From Frankia alni (GTDB taxonomy: Bacteria > Actinomycetota > Actinomycetes > Frankiales > Frankiaceae): a stretch of DNA of 47,752 nt. The notes under the pieces were generated by a model. That model was not told where the DNA came from. It did not search any database and worked only from the letters and a program-made list of their open reading frames with translations. Position numbers and translations under genes: made by a program. Shown one piece after another: positions 1,074 to 44,708 of the stretch. Where the stretch lies: positions 1-47,752 of the forward strand of contig JAMFSN010000171.1 of assembly GCA_026225295.1 (NCBI GenBank), read 5' to 3'. Position 1 is the stretch's first letter. Each line of letters opens with the position of its first letter.

Positions 1074-2267
1074 TCAGGCGGCCTGTGGGGGGGCGTGGCG
1101 ACCCGGTGGCGGGGTCGTGCCATAGGGCAGATGGGGCGCGTCCGGCCGGTACAGGCCCCGTTGGACGGCGTAGCCGGCCCGGGCGGTGAAATCGGCGTGG
1201 AAGACGCCGAAGGCCTCCCGTTCGACGGCATGCCGGGCGGCCCGGCGGTCCAGGGTGCCGGCCACCTCCAGGACCTCGGCGACCCGATCGAGGGTCGCGC
1301 CGCCGCGGGTCCACCCGTGGATCCCGGTACGGGCCAGGCCGTGGGCGGCCAGCCGGCGCAGGTGCCGCGACACGGTCGCGGGATGCAGCCCGGTGCGGGC
1401 CGCCAACGTCCGCAACCCCAGCGGGGCGGCGCCGGTCAGCTGGTCATAGACCCGGCCGGCGACCCGCCCCAGCCCGTGCCAGACCCACACGTCGTGCGCG
1501 CCGGTCGACGACCAGCGTGGCGCGGGCAGCTCGCCGACCCGGTCGGCCACCGCCTCGACGCCGGCGGCCGCCGGCAACCCCGCCGGGATCCGCACGCGGA
1601 ACCGGCCCGCCAGCGTCCCGACCGGCGCCTCCACCAACTCCACCCAGCCGGCCCGCTCCAGCCGGGCCAGGGCACGGGAGACGGTCTGATGCACCACCGG
1701 GGTCCGTTCGGCCAACTGCCGGGTCGACGCGGTCGGGGTGGCCGTCACCGCCTCCACCGCGACGTCGAGCAACGCCTCCAGGACCAGCAACTCCGACGGG
1801 CCGCCCTGCCCGCCCCACAGATACGGCCGGTCGTGCGCGGCCTGCCGGACCGCGGCCAGCTCGGCCACCACCTCCGGGGTCTCCCCGGCGGCCGGCGCGG
1901 TCAGGAACCGGACGACCGCCCGCTCCCACAGGACCCCCACCAGGCGGTCCTGGTCGTGCGCCGGGCGGGCCCGCAGACCGGCGCCGTGCCGGCCGGACAG
2001 CCTGCGGGCCTGGACGTGGCCGCCGCCGACGTTGCCCGGGTCGACCAACGCCGTGACCGTCTCCGTGCGGGTCCAGCCGGCGTTGACCGCCGCCAACGTC
2101 AGCGCCAAGGCCATCGGTGAGCGGTCCGTCCAGCGGCCCGCGACGTCGCCCTCGGCCAGCATCCGGGCCATTGGCGGCGACAATTCCCGCCGGGCCCGGA
2201 CCGCGCGGCCAGAGGCCGCGACCGCCACGGGGTCAACCAGCAACGGATGCGCCGACCCGGACGGCAC
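1074..2267 (-). CDS. Winged-helix protein, possibly replication-related
   Basis: The first part (GRWTDRSPMALALTLAAVNA and the following GWTRTETVTAL) looks like the helical domain found after primase-polymerase domains in actinomycete plasmid replication proteins. Two winged-helix segments follow, one around TRQLAERTPVVHQTVSRALA and one around LRTLAARTGLHPATVSRHLR. No primase catalytic domain is present. The frame is open to a TTG at 2363; GTG 2267 gives a more protein-like N-terminus, and ATG 2171 is another option. It reads toward the hairpin-rich block. A role in replication or its control is an inference; it could simply be a MarR/ArsR-like regulator. Confidence 0.55.
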   Translation of the reverse strand: MPSGSAHPLLVDPVAVAASGRAVRARRELSPPMARMLAEGDVAGRWTDRSPMALALTLAAVNAGWTRTETVTALVDPGNVGGGHVQARRLSGRHGAGLRARPAHDQDRLVGVLWERAVVRFLTAPAAGETPEVVAELAAVRQAAHDRPYLWGGQGGPSELLVLEALLDVAVEAVTATPTASTRQLAERTPVVHQTVSRALARLERAGWVELVEAPVGTLAGRFRVRIPAGLPAAAGVEAVADRVGELPAPRWSSTGAHDVWVWHGLGRVAGRVYDQLTGAAPLGLRTLAARTGLHPATVSRHLRRLAAHGLARTGIHGWTRGGATLDRVAEVLEVAGTLDRRAARHAVEREAFGVFHADFTARAGYAVQRGLYRPDAPHLPYGTTPPPGRHAPPQAA

Positions 2268-2281
2268 GTCCGGCCGGTGAC

Positions 2282-2361
2282 CCGGCCCGATCGGGCCGGC
2301 CGACGCCACAGCAGTGACGCCGTCATGAAGGCGCGCGGGCGTGGCTACTTCCCCGCGCGCC
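2282..2361. repeat. Palindrome and hairpin upstream of the winged-helix gene
   Basis: CCGGCCCGATCGGGCCGG at 2282-2299 is a perfect 18-bp palindrome. At 2330-2361, GGCGCGCGGG and CCCGCGCGCC form a perfect 10-bp stem. Both lie just upstream of the preferred GTG start at 2267, so they may be an operator or a leader hairpin. Confidence 0.5.
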
Positions 2362-2493
2362 AAAGCGCGGGTTATGGTGCCCCCAGGGTTCTTGGAGGTT
2401 GATGTCCCACCGGTGACACGGCGGGCAACGATTCGAGAACGAGGTCCGGCCAGCGGCTGCCAACCGCGGGTACGGGCCTCGTTGCTTTTCCCG

Positions 2494-2718
2494 CTACGCC
2501 ACCGCCGCCTCCTCCGAGGAGTCCGGCGCCGGTGCGGCGGAGAGGTCGAGCACCGGCGGCGCTGCCCGCTCGAGCAGCTGCTCCATCCACCGGTTCACGG
2601 TCATTCCGCGTGCGGCCGCAGCGGCTTCCACCCGCGCCTTCAGGTCCAACGACACCCGCGGTCGCAGCTCGACGGATCGCCGAGCGCTGCGCCTGCCGTG
2701 ATCCGGGCGGGGTGCCAT
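2494..2718 (-). CDS. Ribbon-helix-helix DNA-binding protein
   Basis: A 74-residue protein with a classic ribbon-helix-helix core: a basic strand (SVELRPRVSLDLKARVEAAA) followed by ARGMTVNRWMEQLLERA. RHH proteins of this size are typical plasmid copy-control, partition or antitoxin proteins that dimerise and bind palindromes. No toxin-like partner overlaps it. ATG 2718 was taken as the start; GTG 2724 is two codons earlier in the same frame. The acidic proline/alanine tail (residues 55-74) is probably disordered. Which of the three roles applies cannot be told from sequence alone. Confidence 0.75.
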   Translation of the reverse strand: MAPRPDHGRRSARRSVELRPRVSLDLKARVEAAAAARGMTVNRWMEQLLERAAPPVLDLSAAPAPDSSEEAAVA

Positions 2719-3154
2719 GGGCACGTTCTACCGGATCTCCGGACCGATATTGCGAACGTGGCGCGCCACGGCGCGTGTCGCCGCCAAGCGGCCCGTTTCG
2801 GACCGTGTTCACGCGGTCTCCCAGGAGACGGATCGTGCCTGCGCGGGGGGCCAGTGGGCATGCCGATGCCCGGCTCCAGCGACTGCTGGGGCCGGGCATC
2901 GACGGGCGTGCGGCGGGGGTCAGAGGGTCACCGCGCTCAGGGCGGCGGCCCATAGGCAGGCGGTGTGCAGGGCCTGTTTTGTTGACTGCACCGCAGCGGA
3001 GGTCGCGACCTCCGCCGCGCCGGTCACCACCGGACGCCCATGAGAGAGCTCGGGACGGCAGGCCCCGTCGCCAGGTTCCAAGTCGGAACAGCCGCGCCAT
3101 CGCGGCCAGAGATCCATTCGATTTTCGTCGAGGTGCTCATCGCGATGTCCCAAC
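2719..3154. promoter_or_regulatory. Divergent intergenic region with 20-bp perfect palindrome
   Basis: This spacer lies between the RHH gene (minus strand) and the protease gene (plus strand). It contains GCGGAGGTCGCGACCTCCGC at 2996-3015, a perfect 20-bp palindrome about 140 bp before the protease start, with GTTGACT just upstream (about 2981-2987) as a possible -35 element. It is a candidate operator. I see no gene here. Confidence 0.5.
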
Positions 3155-4462
3155 ATGCGATGGGACAGGGACCACGCCGGCGGGCCGAGTGATCGCCGCG
3201 AGATGATGGCAGTCGAGCTGGAATTGGCCGACGAGCCGGGATCGAGGAGCAGGTTGTTGACGGGGGAACAGCTCAGGCAGCTGGGACGCGAATCCAGGGC
3301 GAACTCGCCTGCGATTATTCTTGTGTTGGCAAGTGTCATTTCTGCTTGCGCGGCGATCGCCAGTCTGACCGCCTCGGTGTCGATTGCCGCGGCCGTAGTC
3401 GCTGTTTTTAGCGGCTACCAGGTTCTTTGGAGTCAGCTGGCTGTTCCATTGCGGATCAAGTCCGCGGCAAACGCCGCCCTCAGAGTCGTTGCCCGCGCCG
3501 ACGACAGCCACTCTCGCACCGGTACCGCCTTCCAGATCGGATCCAGACGGTGGATCACAGCGCGGCACCTCATTGCAGACACCACCGAAATCAACCTGGT
3601 GATCGCGGGAGGACGCGTGCAGGCTCAGGTCATCTATGAGGACGAGGACACTGACCTCGCGGTTCTGTCGAGCAGCGCCACCTGGCCGTGGTTTGCGCGA
3701 GTTGGCCGTGACTTCCCCGACCCGGGAGACCAGGTCAGGCTCGTAGGCTGGACGAGCCCCCGCGGCCCTGATGGAGTTGCGCTCCGTATCGCCCGGGACT
3801 ATCTGGTGCAAGCCCCAGCCGAGGAAAACCTGACTGCTCTGACCGGGCCGGACCCACAGCGTGGGTTCTCGGGAGCGCCTGTGATCGACCTTCGCAGCGG
3901 CCGCGTAGTTGGCATATTTAGCTACTTCAGTCCCGGCGGGCCCGACCCACTCGGGCTCGGACCCGAACAACTCGGCGTAATCCTTATCGTGCCGATCACC
4001 AAGCTCCCTGCCGACTACCGCTAGGGCCGCTGCCGAAGGATAGGGGAGGCCGGTAGTGCAGAGAAGGTCGGCGGTGTACATCCCGGGGCGCCAGCGGACG
4101 TCGCTGTACTCGTTGACCAGGGCGAGGTCGGCGAACGCCCGGCCGCCGGTGCGGGTCAGGACCCAGGCGACGGGCCAGCGCCGGTCCCACAGCGCGTGGG
4201 TGACGACCGAGACGGCCAGCCCGGCGGCGGCGCCGGTGGCGGACAGTGGCAGATCCAGGACCGCCCAGGTGGTCGTGACCATGGCCACGACGACCAGGTG
4301 GTAGCCGGCGAGGTGGCGGCCCAGGGCGTACCAGCCGGCGGTTCCGGGGTTGGCTTTTGCTTGGGCCTGGGTGTCGGTCTGGCCCAGGACGTGATCGGCC
4401 AGGGTGTGCGCCGCGTACAGGGTGGCGAGCAGAGCGGCGAACGTCGCCGTGGTGGTGGTCAT
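3137..4462 (-). CDS. DUF3307-like small membrane protein with run-on C-terminus
   Basis: The reliable part is residues 1 to about 150 (4462 down to about 4012). It has several hydrophobic helices and a motif like DUF3307-type membrane proteins of actinomycete elements (YAAHTLADHVLGQTDTQAQA, then GLAVSVVTHALWDRRWPVAW). ATG 4462 overlaps the previous stop (ATGA). The family would be expected to end near 4020. Here the frame has no stop and runs antisense to the whole protease gene until 3137, so the last 290 or so residues are probably not native. The original 3' end was likely lost when the protease segment arrived. Confidence 0.55.
   Translation of the reverse strand: MTTTTATFAALLATLYAAHTLADHVLGQTDTQAQAKANPGTAGWYALGRHLAGYHLVVVAMVTTTWAVLDLPLSATGAAAGLAVSVVTHALWDRRWPVAWVLTRTGGRAFADLALVNEYSDVRWRPGMYTADLLCTTGLPYPSAAALAVVGRELGDRHDKDYAELFGSEPEWVGPAGTEVAKYANYAAAAKVDHRRSREPTLWVRPGQSSQVFLGWGLHQIVPGDTERNSIRAAGARPAYEPDLVSRVGEVTANSRKPRPGGAARQNREVSVLVLIDDLSLHASSRDHQVDFGGVCNEVPRCDPPSGSDLEGGTGARVAVVGAGNDSEGGVCRGLDPQWNSQLTPKNLVAAKNSDYGRGNRHRGGQTGDRRASRNDTCQHKNNRRRVRPGFASQLPELFPRQQPAPRSRLVGQFQLDCHHLAAITRPAGVVPVPSHVGTSR
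3155..4024 (+). CDS. Membrane-anchored trypsin-like serine protease
   Basis: A 289-residue protein. A hydrophobic stretch at about residues 52-88 could form one or two membrane helices, and a trypsin-like fold follows: GTAFQIGSRRWITARHLI with the catalytic His at about 138, DTDLAVL with Asp at about 167, and QRGFSGAPVID with the nucleophile Ser at about 239. No PDZ domain follows, unlike DegP/HtrA. The start may be ATG 3155 or the paired ATGs at 3203/3206. It is a lone plus-strand gene opposing the long minus-strand cluster, and its base use is less GC-extreme, which suggests inserted cargo. Its substrate is unknown. Confidence 0.8.
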   Translation: MRWDRDHAGGPSDRREMMAVELELADEPGSRSRLLTGEQLRQLGRESRANSPAIILVLASVISACAAIASLTASVSIAAAVVAVFSGYQVLWSQLAVPLRIKSAANAALRVVARADDSHSRTGTAFQIGSRRWITARHLIADTTEINLVIAGGRVQAQVIYEDEDTDLAVLSSSATWPWFARVGRDFPDPGDQVRLVGWTSPRGPDGVALRIARDYLVQAPAEENLTALTGPDPQRGFSGAPVIDLRSGRVVGIFSYFSPGGPDPLGLGPEQLGVILIVPITKLPADYR

Positions 4463-38055: not shown

Positions 38056-38681
38056 CCCGCGTCGATATCCCGGTCCGTGCCCGCGCCCTCGCTCGCCTCT
38101 TGGTCCGCCACCTGGACCGCGTCCACGACATCGCCCTCGACTTGGACCGCGACAACCCCGATCTCCACATCGCCCCCCAACTGGCCTACGTCCGTGATCG
38201 CGCCCGCGACCTCTACCGCGCCGTCGATCCCAACAGCGATATCAGCAACACCCGCGTCCGCGCCCTCGCTCGCGGCATCGCCCGCGACCTCGACCACATT
38301 CGTGACCGAGCCCGCGCCATCAACGCCTTCGTCATCGACATCCACCTAGTCGAAACTGCCCGGACCGCCGGCGAGCTTCTCCAAACGATGGAAGTGCTTG
38401 AACTGACAGAGGAGGCCTCCGCGCCTCCCGAAGTGACGGCAGGTGCCGCAGCGCGATCGCCGGGGCGGACGGTGTCGCGGCTGATCGCGGTGGCGGCATG
38501 GCTGCTGCCCGTGGCCCATCGGGCCCGGTACGGCGAGGAGTTCCGGGCGGAGGTGGGGGAGCTGCCCCGACGCGCCCGACCGAGCTACGCGCTGCGGCTG
38601 ATCGGGTCGGCACCGGCGTTGCGCCGGGGGCTGGGCGACGGGGCGGCCGAGCGGGTCGCCCGGGCTGGGCGGTCGGTATGA
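38052..38681 (+). CDS. Hypothetical protein coupled to PadR
   Basis: 209 residues. The first half is rich in ARALARLLVRHLDRVHDIAL-type helices with two similar repeats (ARDLYRAVDPNSDI and ALARGIARDLDHIRDRARAI). The second half contains one hydrophobic helix (VSRLIAVAAWLLPVAHRARY). It overlaps PadR by ATGA and the microprotein gene by ATGA. Possibly the protein this PadR controls; no known family. Confidence 0.6.
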   Translation: MTRVDIPVRARALARLLVRHLDRVHDIALDLDRDNPDLHIAPQLAYVRDRARDLYRAVDPNSDISNTRVRALARGIARDLDHIRDRARAINAFVIDIHLVETARTAGELLQTMEVLELTEEASAPPEVTAGAAARSPGRTVSRLIAVAAWLLPVAHRARYGEEFRAEVGELPRRARPSYALRLIGSAPALRRGLGDGAAERVARAGRSV

Positions 38682-38845
38682 GTAGGTGGCTGGCCGCGCC
38701 GGTGTGGCTGGCGGGTGGGGTGCTGGTCGTGCTGGTGCTCGGGATCTGCGGGACGGAGCGGATGTACCAACGCGCCATCGGCCTCATCCGCGCACTCCGC
38801 GGCGCCCCCGACCAGCCCACCAACCATGGGCCGCCGACCATCTGA
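38678..38845 (+). CDS. Membrane microprotein, GICGTERMYQRA family copy 1
   Basis: 55 residues: WLAGGVLVVLVLGICGTERM is a membrane helix ending in a CGTERMYQRA motif, followed by a basic tail (IRALRGAPDQPTN). ATG 38678 overlaps the previous stop (ATGA). A second copy (40832-40966) shares LGICGTERMYQRA and RALRGAPDQPTN. Each is followed by a strong terminator. Function unknown. Confidence 0.65.
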   Translation: MSRWLAAPVWLAGGVLVVLVLGICGTERMYQRAIGLIRALRGAPDQPTNHGPPTI

Positions 38846-38859
38846 CCTCGACATAAAAA

Positions 38860-39426: not shown

Positions 39427-40740
39427 ATGGGTCGCCCTGAGCGGCCGGTAGATCACCGAAACGGACCCGTCGCTGCATTCGCTGTCGACCTGCGAGCGCG
39501 GCGTAACGCGGCGGGCCTGACCTACCGGCAGATGGCTAAACTTGTTCACTTTTCGGTGCCTACGTTGTCATCCGCAGCCGCCGGCCGAGAGCCACCCACG
39601 TGGATGGTTCTTAGCGCCTACCTTGCCGCCTGCGGTGTCGACGACGCTGAACTAGCCACGTGGCGTTCTCGCTGGATGTCACTCACCAGTAGGGAGAGCG
39701 ACGCAACCCCGACGGTCGAGACCGGGACCCCGGGGCGGCGACTGCAAGATCCGGATCATGTTCGGACCTCGTCAGAGCTCGCCGCCGCGCTGAACATCGT
39801 TCGGGGTGATCTTTCCTATCAGCAGCTGACGATCGCGGCCCGAAAGTTGCCCTCGGCGGGCTCTTCGCGACGAGGCCTACCCGCGAGCACTGTCTCCGAT
39901 CTACTCAGGCACGGCCGCACGTCGCGGGAAACGCTGACGACTTACCTGGCTGTGTGTCAGGTACCCGTCGGCGCGTGGGCGGCGTGGATTTCAGCCTGGG
40001 AACGGTCACGGGCCCGGCAGTACCAACCCCCCCTCGCCGTCGTGGAGCAACCGCCTGGCACTGGCACCGAGGACGACGAGGAACACGCAGGTGTCGCGGG
40101 GGCATCGACCGCGATCACGGTGGCGGCGATCGACAACCACCCCATCGTCCTGCACGGCCTGCAGTCGCTGCTGGCGGCCGCGCCGGGGGTCACGGTGGTC
40201 GCGACCGCCCGGACCGTCGACGAGCTACTCATCGGCCCAGGGCGACATGCCGAGATCGTCCTGCTCGAACCCGATCTCGGAGATGGATCGGTCGCCACAG
40301 ACAACATCCGCGACCTGCTGGCCGCGGGAGCGAAGGTGGTCGTGCTGTCGGCGGTCGCGACGCCCGAGGCGGTGCGGGCGGCGGTACGCGCCGGAGCCAG
40401 CGGCTACGTACCAAAGGCCGAGAACGTCGACGACCTCATGCGGGCCATAGAGGACGCGGCCGCCGGCGGCTCGTGGGTGTCCCCCCAGCTCGCGTTCGCG
40501 CTCCTGACCGACGCCGACGAAGACCGGCCGCACCTGTCCAGCCAGGAAACCGAGGCGCTCAAGCTGTACGCGGCCGGCCTACCCCTGAAAACCGTGGGCC
40601 GACAGATGGGCGTCAGCCAGGACACCGCCAAGCAGTACCTCGACCGGGTCCGAGCCAAATACCGCCGGGCCGGACGGGAAGCCGGCACCAAGATCGATCT
40701 CTACCGGCGCGCTGTCGAAGACAGGCACCTCCCACGGTGA
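39427..40740 (+). CDS. Double HTH-receiver-LuxR fusion regulator
   Basis: 437 residues. Two Xre/Cro-like regions (about 16-82 and 115-195) have the same order as the stand-alone protein at 46069. Residues 228-350 are a NarL-type receiver (TVAAIDNHPIVLHGLQSLLA). It has a DN in place of the acidic pair and Glu281 (VLLEPDL) where the phosphorylated Asp should be, while Lys330 and Ser308 are kept. Residues 368-425 form a LuxR HTH (SSQETEALKLYAAGLPLKTV). A Glu at that position can mimic phosphorylation, so it may be permanently active. This domain order is unusual. Confidence 0.8.
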   Translation: MGRPERPVDHRNGPVAAFAVDLRARRNAAGLTYRQMAKLVHFSVPTLSSAAAGREPPTWMVLSAYLAACGVDDAELATWRSRWMSLTSRESDATPTVETGTPGRRLQDPDHVRTSSELAAALNIVRGDLSYQQLTIAARKLPSAGSSRRGLPASTVSDLLRHGRTSRETLTTYLAVCQVPVGAWAAWISAWERSRARQYQPPLAVVEQPPGTGTEDDEEHAGVAGASTAITVAAIDNHPIVLHGLQSLLAAAPGVTVVATARTVDELLIGPGRHAEIVLLEPDLGDGSVATDNIRDLLAAGAKVVVLSAVATPEAVRAAVRAGASGYVPKAENVDDLMRAIEDAAAGGSWVSPQLAFALLTDADEDRPHLSSQETEALKLYAAGLPLKTVGRQMGVSQDTAKQYLDRVRAKYRRAGREAGTKIDLYRRAVEDRHLPR

Positions 40741-40831
40741 CCAACGCTCAAATGATCAGCCGAACCCACGGGACGCCTTCGGAGGAGTCGGCGAGGGCGG
40801 CCCGGACGACGTCGCGCTTTGGGAGTCGCCG

Positions 40832-40966
40832 ATGTGGCTGGTCGTGGTCGTGCCGGTGCTGGGGATCTGCGGGACGGAGCGGATGTACCAGCGCGCCGTT
40901 GGCCCCATCCGCGCCCTCCGCGGCGCCCCAGATCAGCCCACGAACTCCGGGCGACCGGCCGCCTGA
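40832..40966 (+). CDS. Membrane microprotein, GICGTERMYQRA family copy 2
   Basis: 44 residues: MWLVVVVPVLGICGTERMYQ then RAVGPIRALRGAPDQPTNSG. It shares two long identities with the 55-residue protein at 38678-38845, yet sits behind an unrelated gene. ATG 40832 has weak ribosome signal. Followed by the 17-bp-stem terminator. The recurrence suggests a real, conserved small protein. Confidence 0.65.
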   Translation: MWLVVVVPVLGICGTERMYQRAVGPIRALRGAPDQPTNSGRPAA

Positions 40967-41002
40967 CCTCCCCCGCAGACCAGGGCTGCAGGGTCAAAAC
41001 GC

Positions 41003-42545: not shown

Positions 42546-43751
42546 ATGCTAGACACCGATGAGATTCGCCTGCTCCGCAGCGCCCTGTTCGCTCTGCGGG
42601 AGATCCTCCCGTCGAAGTGGGAGGTCGGCTTCGACGGGGGATCGAACGACATACCCAGCGGCCCACCGTCGTGGCTGACGATCAAAAGTGATCGAGGCGG
42701 GGTGTCCAACCGGTTCCGGGTCGAGGCGAAGGCTCGGGTCACACCGCTGGCCGCCAGGACGTTCGTGGAGCAGCGACGGGAGGGCACGATCTGGTCGCCC
42801 GGCTGGGAACCACTCATGCTGGTCGTGTCACCCTGGCTGTCCGCATCGACGCGGCGGATACTGCGCGACGGCGAGGTCAGCTATCTCGATCTGACCGGCA
42901 ATGTCTTCCTGTACAGCCCCAACCCCGCGGTGTTCATCGACAAAGAAGGCGCGTCACGTGACCCGTCGGCCACACGGGGGGGCCAGGCCCAGGGGCGCGC
43001 GCTGTCCGGGACGAAGGCCGGGCGGCTGGTCCGCCTACTCGTCGACGCCGCTCCGCCGGTGCGACCCGCGGACCTGGCCCGCAAGGCCGACCTGAGCCCG
43101 GGGTACGTGGCTCGACTCCTGGCCACGTTGGAGGACCAAGGACTCATCCGACGCGGGCACCGAGGCGTCGACACCGTCGACTGGCCTTCTCTCCTGCGCG
43201 CCCGGGCAGAGCAGAGCAAGTCCTTGATCCGCCCCGGTGCCCACATCCCCCTGCTCGCCCCCCAAGGCGTCGAGAGGTTCCTCGACGATGCGCGTAGGGA
43301 ACTGCCCGACCAGACACTCGTCACCGGGTCGTACGCCGCCGCCGCGATCGCCCCGGTGACCGTCGGCGGCCAGCTGCACCTCTACCCGACCGGACCGGTG
43401 ATCGGCAATCCTGGCTCGTTCGCAACGAACCTGGAAAACCTCACCAACGCTCTTCCCACCGAGCGCGGCGCCGACGTGCTGGTCCTCGTCCCGGACGACG
43501 CCGTCGCGGTGCGCTGGGGCGCCCACAACGTCGACGGTCTCTGGCACGTGGCACCCAGCCAACTCGTGCTCGACGGTCTGACCGGCAACGGTCGGATGCC
43601 CGCCGAAGCCGAAGCTGTCCTCGACTGGATGATCGGATCGGAGCCCACCTGGCGGGCGGACAGCCTCGACACGCTTCCCCGCCGGTATTTCGAGGGCCAG
43701 ATCCACCCCGGCGTACAGTCGCTACCGCAGCCGGGCCAGGGCGAGCAGTAA
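42546..43751 (+). CDS. AbiEi-like antitoxin/transcriptional regulator
   Basis: 401 residues. The N-terminal 150 residues form an alpha/beta domain (RFRVEAKARVTPLAARTFVE, LMLVVSPWLSASTRRILRDG, then VSYLDLTGNVFL). A winged helix follows at about 158-208 (PADLARKADLSPGYVARLLA). The rest has strand-rich elements (ADVLVLVPDDAVAVRW). The YLDLTGN motif and the following nucleotidyltransferase gene indicate an AbiEi-type partner of a type IV toxin-antitoxin pair. In well-known AbiEi the HTH is N-terminal; here it is central, a variant. Confidence 0.75.
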   Translation: MLDTDEIRLLRSALFALREILPSKWEVGFDGGSNDIPSGPPSWLTIKSDRGGVSNRFRVEAKARVTPLAARTFVEQRREGTIWSPGWEPLMLVVSPWLSASTRRILRDGEVSYLDLTGNVFLYSPNPAVFIDKEGASRDPSATRGGQAQGRALSGTKAGRLVRLLVDAAPPVRPADLARKADLSPGYVARLLATLEDQGLIRRGHRGVDTVDWPSLLRARAEQSKSLIRPGAHIPLLAPQGVERFLDDARRELPDQTLVTGSYAAAAIAPVTVGGQLHLYPTGPVIGNPGSFATNLENLTNALPTERGADVLVLVPDDAVAVRWGAHNVDGLWHVAPSQLVLDGLTGNGRMPAEAEAVLDWMIGSEPTWRADSLDTLPRRYFEGQIHPGVQSLPQPGQGEQ

Positions 43752-43784
43752 CCGGCAGTAGTAGCAGTAGAAGGGGAATCCTGC

Positions 43785-44708
43785 GTGGCGCGAGTACCGC
43801 CCGGAGTCGACCCCACCGCGCTGACCGTCGCCGCCCGCCGGGTACTCCTCGACGCCCTGGACGCGCTCGGCGAGCACCGCCCAGCCGTGATCGTCGTCGG
43901 CGCGCAAGCGGTTTATCTACACAGCCAGGACGCAGACTTCGGTGTCGCCGCCTTCACCACCGACGCCGACCTCGCCCTCGACCCCAGCCTTCTGAACGAC
44001 GAACCACTCATCAACACCGCCATGCAAGCGGCCGGGTTCAGCCTGCATCACGACGCCGCCGGCGCCTTGCAGCCAGGCAAGTGGACCCGCGCCACCCTCG
44101 TCGACGGCCTTCCACGCGAGATCCCCGTCGACCTCATCGTCCCCGCCACCCTCGACACCGGTCGACCCAGCCAGCGCGGAGCACGTATCGCTCCACACCC
44201 CACGACCGCGGCGATGCGAACCCCCGGCCTCGAACTCGCCGTCGCCGACCACCACTCCATGACGATCGCCGGCCTGGAACCAGACATCGACCCCCGCCGG
44301 ATCGAAATCCACGTCGCTGGCGTCGTCGCACTCCTCGTCGCGAAAGCGCACAAGATCGCCGACCGGCTCACCGCCGCCGACCGCGGACACAGCAAACGGC
44401 TGTCCGACAAAGACGCCGGCGACGTCTTCCGCCTCATGACCTCCGGCCGCACCAGAGCTGACCAAGCCACCCTCCAGCGAATGATCAACGATGTCACGCT
44501 CGGTCCCACGGCGCGTGACGGTGCCCGCCTACTCCGCGACCAGTTCGGCACCAGAGCCGCTCCCGGCGTAGAGATGGCCGTCCGAGCACTCACCGGCGGC
44601 ACCTTCACCGAAGACCGCATACGCGATCTATGCGTGGCCTACACCCGCGCCATCGTCGCCGATCTCGACATTCCCAGCACGACATCCGGTGGGCCATCGA
44701 CCGCCTGA
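43785..44708 (+). CDS. AbiEii-like nucleotidyltransferase toxin
   Basis: 307 residues. VIVVGAQAVYLHSQD (about 36-50) and FTTDADLALDPSLL (about 57-70) carry the GxQA and TxDxDL motifs of the nucleotidyltransferase fold; Asp60 and Asp62 should bind metal. GTG 43785 follows AGAAGGGGAA, 33 bp after the antitoxin gene. Toxins of this type modify tRNA or other targets and stop growth until neutralised; on plasmids they give stability and sometimes phage resistance. The exact target cannot be read from sequence. Confidence 0.78.
   Translation: MARVPPGVDPTALTVAARRVLLDALDALGEHRPAVIVVGAQAVYLHSQDADFGVAAFTTDADLALDPSLLNDEPLINTAMQAAGFSLHHDAAGALQPGKWTRATLVDGLPREIPVDLIVPATLDTGRPSQRGARIAPHPTTAAMRTPGLELAVADHHSMTIAGLEPDIDPRRIEIHVAGVVALLVAKAHKIADRLTAADRGHSKRLSDKDAGDVFRLMTSGRTRADQATLQRMINDVTLGPTARDGARLLRDQFGTRAAPGVEMAVRALTGGTFTEDRIRDLCVAYTRAIVADLDIPSTTSGGPSTA

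Follow-up and report, generated by a model that had tools for sequence, protein, structure and literature searches.

A LuxR-type regulator with a degenerate receiver domain behind a double helix-turn-helix module in Frankia alni

What kind of protein is encoded where two Xre-like helix-turn-helix (HTH) domains stand in one reading frame with a receiver that lacks its phosphorylation site and a LuxR-type DNA-binding domain, and is such a gene a working regulator or an accident? The question is raised by a gene at positions 39427..40740 (+ strand) of a 47,752-nt stretch of Frankia alni DNA, referred to here as the window, one complete contig out of the 412 that make up a 5.78 Mb draft genome. 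The parts of the gene are well known; what is new is their combination. The interpretation towards which we lean, with no more than modest confidence, is that a duplicate of a NarL/FixJ-type regulator was placed behind a double-HTH module and would now serve as a phosphorylation-independent pseudo-response regulator at the operators of its paralogue, with the HTH domains adding to or changing its targeting.

Reading frame, domains and surroundings of the fused gene

The open frame predicts a protein of 437 aa with the domain order HTH-HTH-pseudoreceiver-LuxR, and its ATG start is backed by homologues that align from residue 1 (MGRPERP or MARPERP). Pfam recognises HTH_31 at residues 18-79 (E 1.7e-13), Response_reg at 232-342 (2.4e-8) and GerE at 370-411 (3.5e-5). 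The order of a receiver followed by a LuxR/GerE domain, as found in NarL/FixJ regulators, is also borne out by Foldseek, for which the structures nearest to the model of the whole protein are NarL-type regulators (DesR, ChrA, LiaR and RcsB; NarL was also matched); the NarL-like NCBIfam matches fall under the equivalog cut-offs. An acidic, Pro-rich linker (40012..40110, +) separates the HTH part from the pseudoreceiver domain (residues 230-345; 40114..40461, +) and the LuxR/GerE DNA-binding domain (residues ~370-437; 40534..40737, +).

The first HTH domain (XRE/HTH_31; 39478..39663, +) is followed by a second (residues ~112-195; 39760..40011, +) that is a diverged repeat of it. Taken alone, HTH 2 of the fused protein gives no Pfam match above threshold; three relatives have a second HTH repeat too, and their equivalent segment matches HTH_31 with E values of 1.4e-5 to 2.1e-4, under the curated cut-off, while a profile-profile comparison of HTH 1 with HTH 2 gives a probability of 97.4% and an E value of 1.1e-11. 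The AlphaFold model of the N-terminal part places five helices in each repeat, with block pLDDT values of ~75-90 for HTH 1 and ~52-74 for HTH 2, whose helices span residues 115-126, 131-140, 153-162, 167-176 and 181-198 and whose two central helices are separated by a long insert (~141-152); the AlphaFold models of the fused protein were built on 5 and 2 sequences. With the N-terminal model, Foldseek returned weak matches, none with E <0.001 and many of them XRE-type proteins. An earlier note on this DNA, made from the letters alone, had named a misreading of the HTH regions as a way in which its description could fail. That possibility, like that of a frame error, is ruled out by Pfam, the homologue starts, the profile-profile E value and the helix models, and the five helices per repeat, modelled with good confidence in HTH 1 and moderate confidence in HTH 2, mark both regions as genuine. 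The same note counted up to three DNA-binding regions in one chain, which is correct as a count of domains but does not show DNA binding by each of them.

The first ~90 residues, with a start of the type MGRPERPVD..., represent a module that is widely used across the Frankiaceae-group family. Double-HTH module proteins are recognised by an N-terminal pair of HTH_31 repeats and an RPERP start motif, both of which the fused protein possesses. Elsewhere in the family the double-HTH module is joined to a STAND-like NTPase (L058), to pentapeptide repeats (L056) or to nothing recognisable (L057), and relatives with a single HTH (L059-L071) carry NB-ARC-like, membrane or protein kinase parts; these partner types were judged by reading the sequences, without a separate domain scan. 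Within the window, and outside the fused gene, a stand-alone double-HTH protein of 217 aa, P0002 (46069..46722, -), is homologous to the fused N-terminus (E 6.2e-9, 29% identity; 35% in a pairwise alignment). It had been described as the same unit occurring alone; the homology holds, but P0002 is a distant relative and not a copy. At the junction GC3 steps from 0.65-0.72 in front to 0.83-0.86 behind, as would be expected from two origins, and this step together with the reused module in front leads us to regard the fused gene as chimeric, with a duplicated regulator behind a promiscuous module.

Several features of the surroundings were recorded in their own right. A 131-nt direct repeat, 85% identical (window 38719-38849 and 40840-40970), flanks the fused gene; it is part of a small ORF of single-TM-like type (38678-38845 and about 40823-40963), whose second copy sits after the fused gene. 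Together with a PadR gene (37708) and a 209-aa gene (38052), the small ORF makes up a group of three that is also present in another member of the family (L077). At 42546-44708 a winged-HTH gene with a weak AbiEi_4 match adjoins a gene with a weak nucleotidyltransferase match (NTP_transf_8); the pair is possibly AbiE-like, judging from these similarities, and PADLOC gave no match for it. PADLOC gave no match for the fused protein either, by which membership in a defence system was ruled out, and Pfam found no kinase domain among the neighbouring genes scanned.

Duplication of the regulator and distribution of the fusion

The receiver-LuxR half is matched in the same genome by an unfused paralogue, L002 (C368:21939-22562). 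The two proteins share 87% amino acid identity, over residues 229-436 of the fused protein only, and the genes share 84% DNA identity over 622 nt of coding sequence, from about window position 40112 just past the linker to the end of the gene. In the tree the fused copy and L002 are sisters (support 98/93; branches of 0.17 and 0.15), and orthologues in related genomes keep the DD...D residues, only the fused copy having lost the acidic pocket, from which it follows that the fused copy is a lineage-specific duplicate. The pocket of L002 itself is intact (VDDHP and LLDL kept), and the convergent gene on its downstream side, which encodes a membrane protein, resembles by eye the gene downstream of the orthologue in other genera; both observations suggest that L002 is probably the original copy. 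Upstream of L002 lies a membrane ORF (2133-3380, -) with a sensor-kinase-like layout and no Pfam match; the orthologues examined in other genera do not have it as a neighbour. The idea of a conserved kinase neighbour for the orthologue group was dropped, since the sensor-like ORF occurs upstream of L002 only and is without a Pfam match.

Between the fused copy and L002, dN/dS is 0.157 overall, 0.22 for the receiver and 0.10 for the LuxR domain, and omega is ~0.31 even if the fused branch is made to carry all the amino acid changes and half the synonymous ones. The low dN/dS and the near-equal branches argue against decay of the fused copy and were the grounds on which a pseudogene was ruled out; some of the measured purifying selection may predate the fusion. 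At the level of sequence comparison, the duplication, the fusion, the loss of the pocket and purifying selection across the copy-to-copy divergence are all documented.

The earlier note had asked whether the domain order recurs, and no second case came to light. With the whole fused protein as query and a match spanning both halves as the requirement, no further genome with the fusion turned up among 35 genomes from the family or order, 394 from the class, 247 from a Streptomyces-like genus and 299 from another family, where matches covered one half of the protein only. These sets partly overlap, and since the large searches took just a few best candidates from each genome into scoring, a fused protein whose HTHs have diverged strongly could escape. 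Among plasmids, 182 records matched, 0 of them over 80% of the query, and pattern scans of genome contigs and viral contigs revealed no fused relative. Xre goes unmentioned in the text of a survey of actinobacterial LuxR architectures (PMC3466318). A widespread architecture is ruled out by the family, class, Streptomyces-like genus, other-family, plasmid and contig searches, and the fusion is apparently unique to the source lineage among the sequences compared.

Could the fusion then be a one-off error, as the earlier note allowed? It is indeed known from one genome only, but the receiver-LuxR part bears the mark of purifying selection and the start and module at the N-terminus have conserved counterparts elsewhere, which together make it look like a young and real gene rather than an error. 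We regard an assembly chimera, or a recent fusion that is not yet functional, as very improbable. The draft state of the genome, with its 412 contigs, the single occurrence and the composition step at the junction are what might be expected of such a chimera; however, the junction is in frame and in the interior of the contig, a collapsed repeat would call for a DNA identity to the paralogue higher than the 84% observed, the divergence between the copies is constrained (dN/dS), and the start and N-terminal module match homologues. Sequence conservation of this kind points to a gene that is probably functional.

The receiver pocket and possible modes of action

The pocket of the fused receiver consists of D236-N237, E281, S308 and K330. 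As the earlier note had stated, Glu (Glu281) replaces the phospho-Asp and one residue of the acidic pair is gone, its second position being taken by Asn237. The domain is thus recognised as Response_reg (E 2.4e-8) yet has Glu at the phospho-Asp position, as a pseudo-receiver does, and the phosphorylatable Asp and intact acidic pair of NarL/FixJ regulators are lacking. Asp occupies both positions in 26/26 of the Frankiaceae-group relatives compared, among which 74 positions are invariant; six of these differ in the fused copy alone, D237N, D281E and L282P being three of the changes. The chance that two of the three acidic positions would be hit among 10-22 changes is ~0.006-0.03, and the loss of the pocket therefore suggests that selection at the phosphorylation site was relaxed or altered, rather than a general decay. 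The replacement of an otherwise invariant Asp bears out the earlier statement that this cannot be a normal response regulator, and the residues support the prediction that phosphorylation by the usual route is not to be expected.

How such a protein might act can be approached from its two ends. The LuxR recognition region is identical to that of L002 over TAKQYLDRVRAKYRRAGREAGTK, from which we infer that operators are likely to be shared between the two proteins. A shared operator was sought upstream of both copies as inverted repeats and common 10-mers, and no convincing site was found. Upstream of the orthologous response regulator (L018-L042), the core TCTGCTGAAAT is conserved at a distance of 148-207 nt in ~25 genomes of three genera, and GNTCTGCTGAAATRR occurs about once per genome (24 matches in 22/35 genomes; 0 for the reversed control); together they are a candidate gene-specific control element. 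GNTCTGCTGAAATRR is absent from the source genome and from upstream of either copy.

As for the receiver, PMC12632262 names Glu at the D position and Asn at the second position of the acidic pair as common pseudo-receiver replacements, and describes Glu as a partial mimic of phospho-Asp in many, although not all, receivers. That Glu281 may hold the fused protein active is, by analogy, a recognised pseudo-receiver hypothesis, and S308 and K330, the switch residues that would engage such a Glu, are retained. The same source reports that a setting of pseudo-receiver activity by the residue at the D position was supported in some proteins and disproved in others. The cases in which it was disproved lend some weight to a different scheme, which we consider quite unlikely, in which Glu281 would be neutral in an inert or ligand-gated receiver scaffold and activity would be set by a small molecule or by the HTHs. 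Such control is known among atypical actinobacterial regulators, JadR1 and RedZ being under end-product control according to PMC12632262; beside the fused gene, however, no biosynthetic cluster or ligand was identified, and the retention of S308 and K330 is at odds with an inert scaffold.

The near-identity of the LuxR domains and the conserved body of the receiver would also allow the fused protein to pair with its intact paralogue through the receiver and LuxR surfaces and to redirect or dampen it, as WhiI does with BldM. PMC4125116 provides a precedent from Streptomyces, where a response regulator of atypical type, its pocket degenerate, works solely as a heterodimer with another one, but the N-terminal module might hinder pairing, and we consider this rather unlikely.

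The phosphorylation-independent regulator that we favour would have arisen through several changes. A conserved NarL/FixJ-type regulator would have been duplicated in the source lineage, or captured from a close relative of it, and the copy placed, in frame, after a double-HTH module of a kind used with many partners in the family. The pocket of the copy would have degenerated, with D giving way to E at the acceptor and to N at the second position of the acidic pair, while its LuxR domain stayed nearly unchanged. The resulting protein would act as a phosphorylation-independent transcription factor at operators of the paralogue's kind, its constitutive activity perhaps assisted by Glu, and this activity would be set by the amount of protein and by DNA targeting through the N-terminal HTHs rather than by a histidine kinase. 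A bolder version, which we think unlikely, would make the fused protein a kinase-blind, dominant form of its paralogue whose HTHs tether it to sites of a second class and which pairs or competes with the paralogue, rewiring its regulon, so that the two would form a phosphomimetic pair within one genome.

Relation to known regulators

The activation and inactivation of bacterial pseudo-receivers is called an open question in PMC12632262. Here, canonical and pseudo versions of one regulator, 87% identical, reside in one genome, and the contributions of the pocket residues, the fusion and the output can therefore be tested against a natural control; the question of the Glu residue, in particular, becomes directly testable. 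The gene is also a case in which an HTH module that actinobacteria reuse widely has been combined with a two-component output.

With the NarL/FixJ (REC-LuxR) regulators, including the Frankiaceae-group orthologues and L002, the fused protein shares the receiver and LuxR folds and their order; unlike them, it has an additional double-HTH N-terminus and is without the phospho-acceptor and one acidic residue. Its Glu and Asn replacements resemble those of pseudo-receivers and atypical response regulators, of which actinobacterial cases exist, in the relevant portions of PMC4395418, PMC12632262 (JadR1 and RedZ) and PMC4125116 (BldM and WhiI); tandem XRE-type HTHs in front of the receiver, the distinguishing feature of the fused protein, are not described in those portions. 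With the actinobacterial HTH_31 or double-HTH proteins (L056, L057 and L058) it has in common the start motif, HTH 1 and a diverged second repeat. Other proteins with the HTH_31 module (L056-L071) carry STAND-like, NB-ARC-like, pentapeptide, membrane or kinase parts and none of them a receiver-LuxR unit, the part by which the fused protein is set apart from them.
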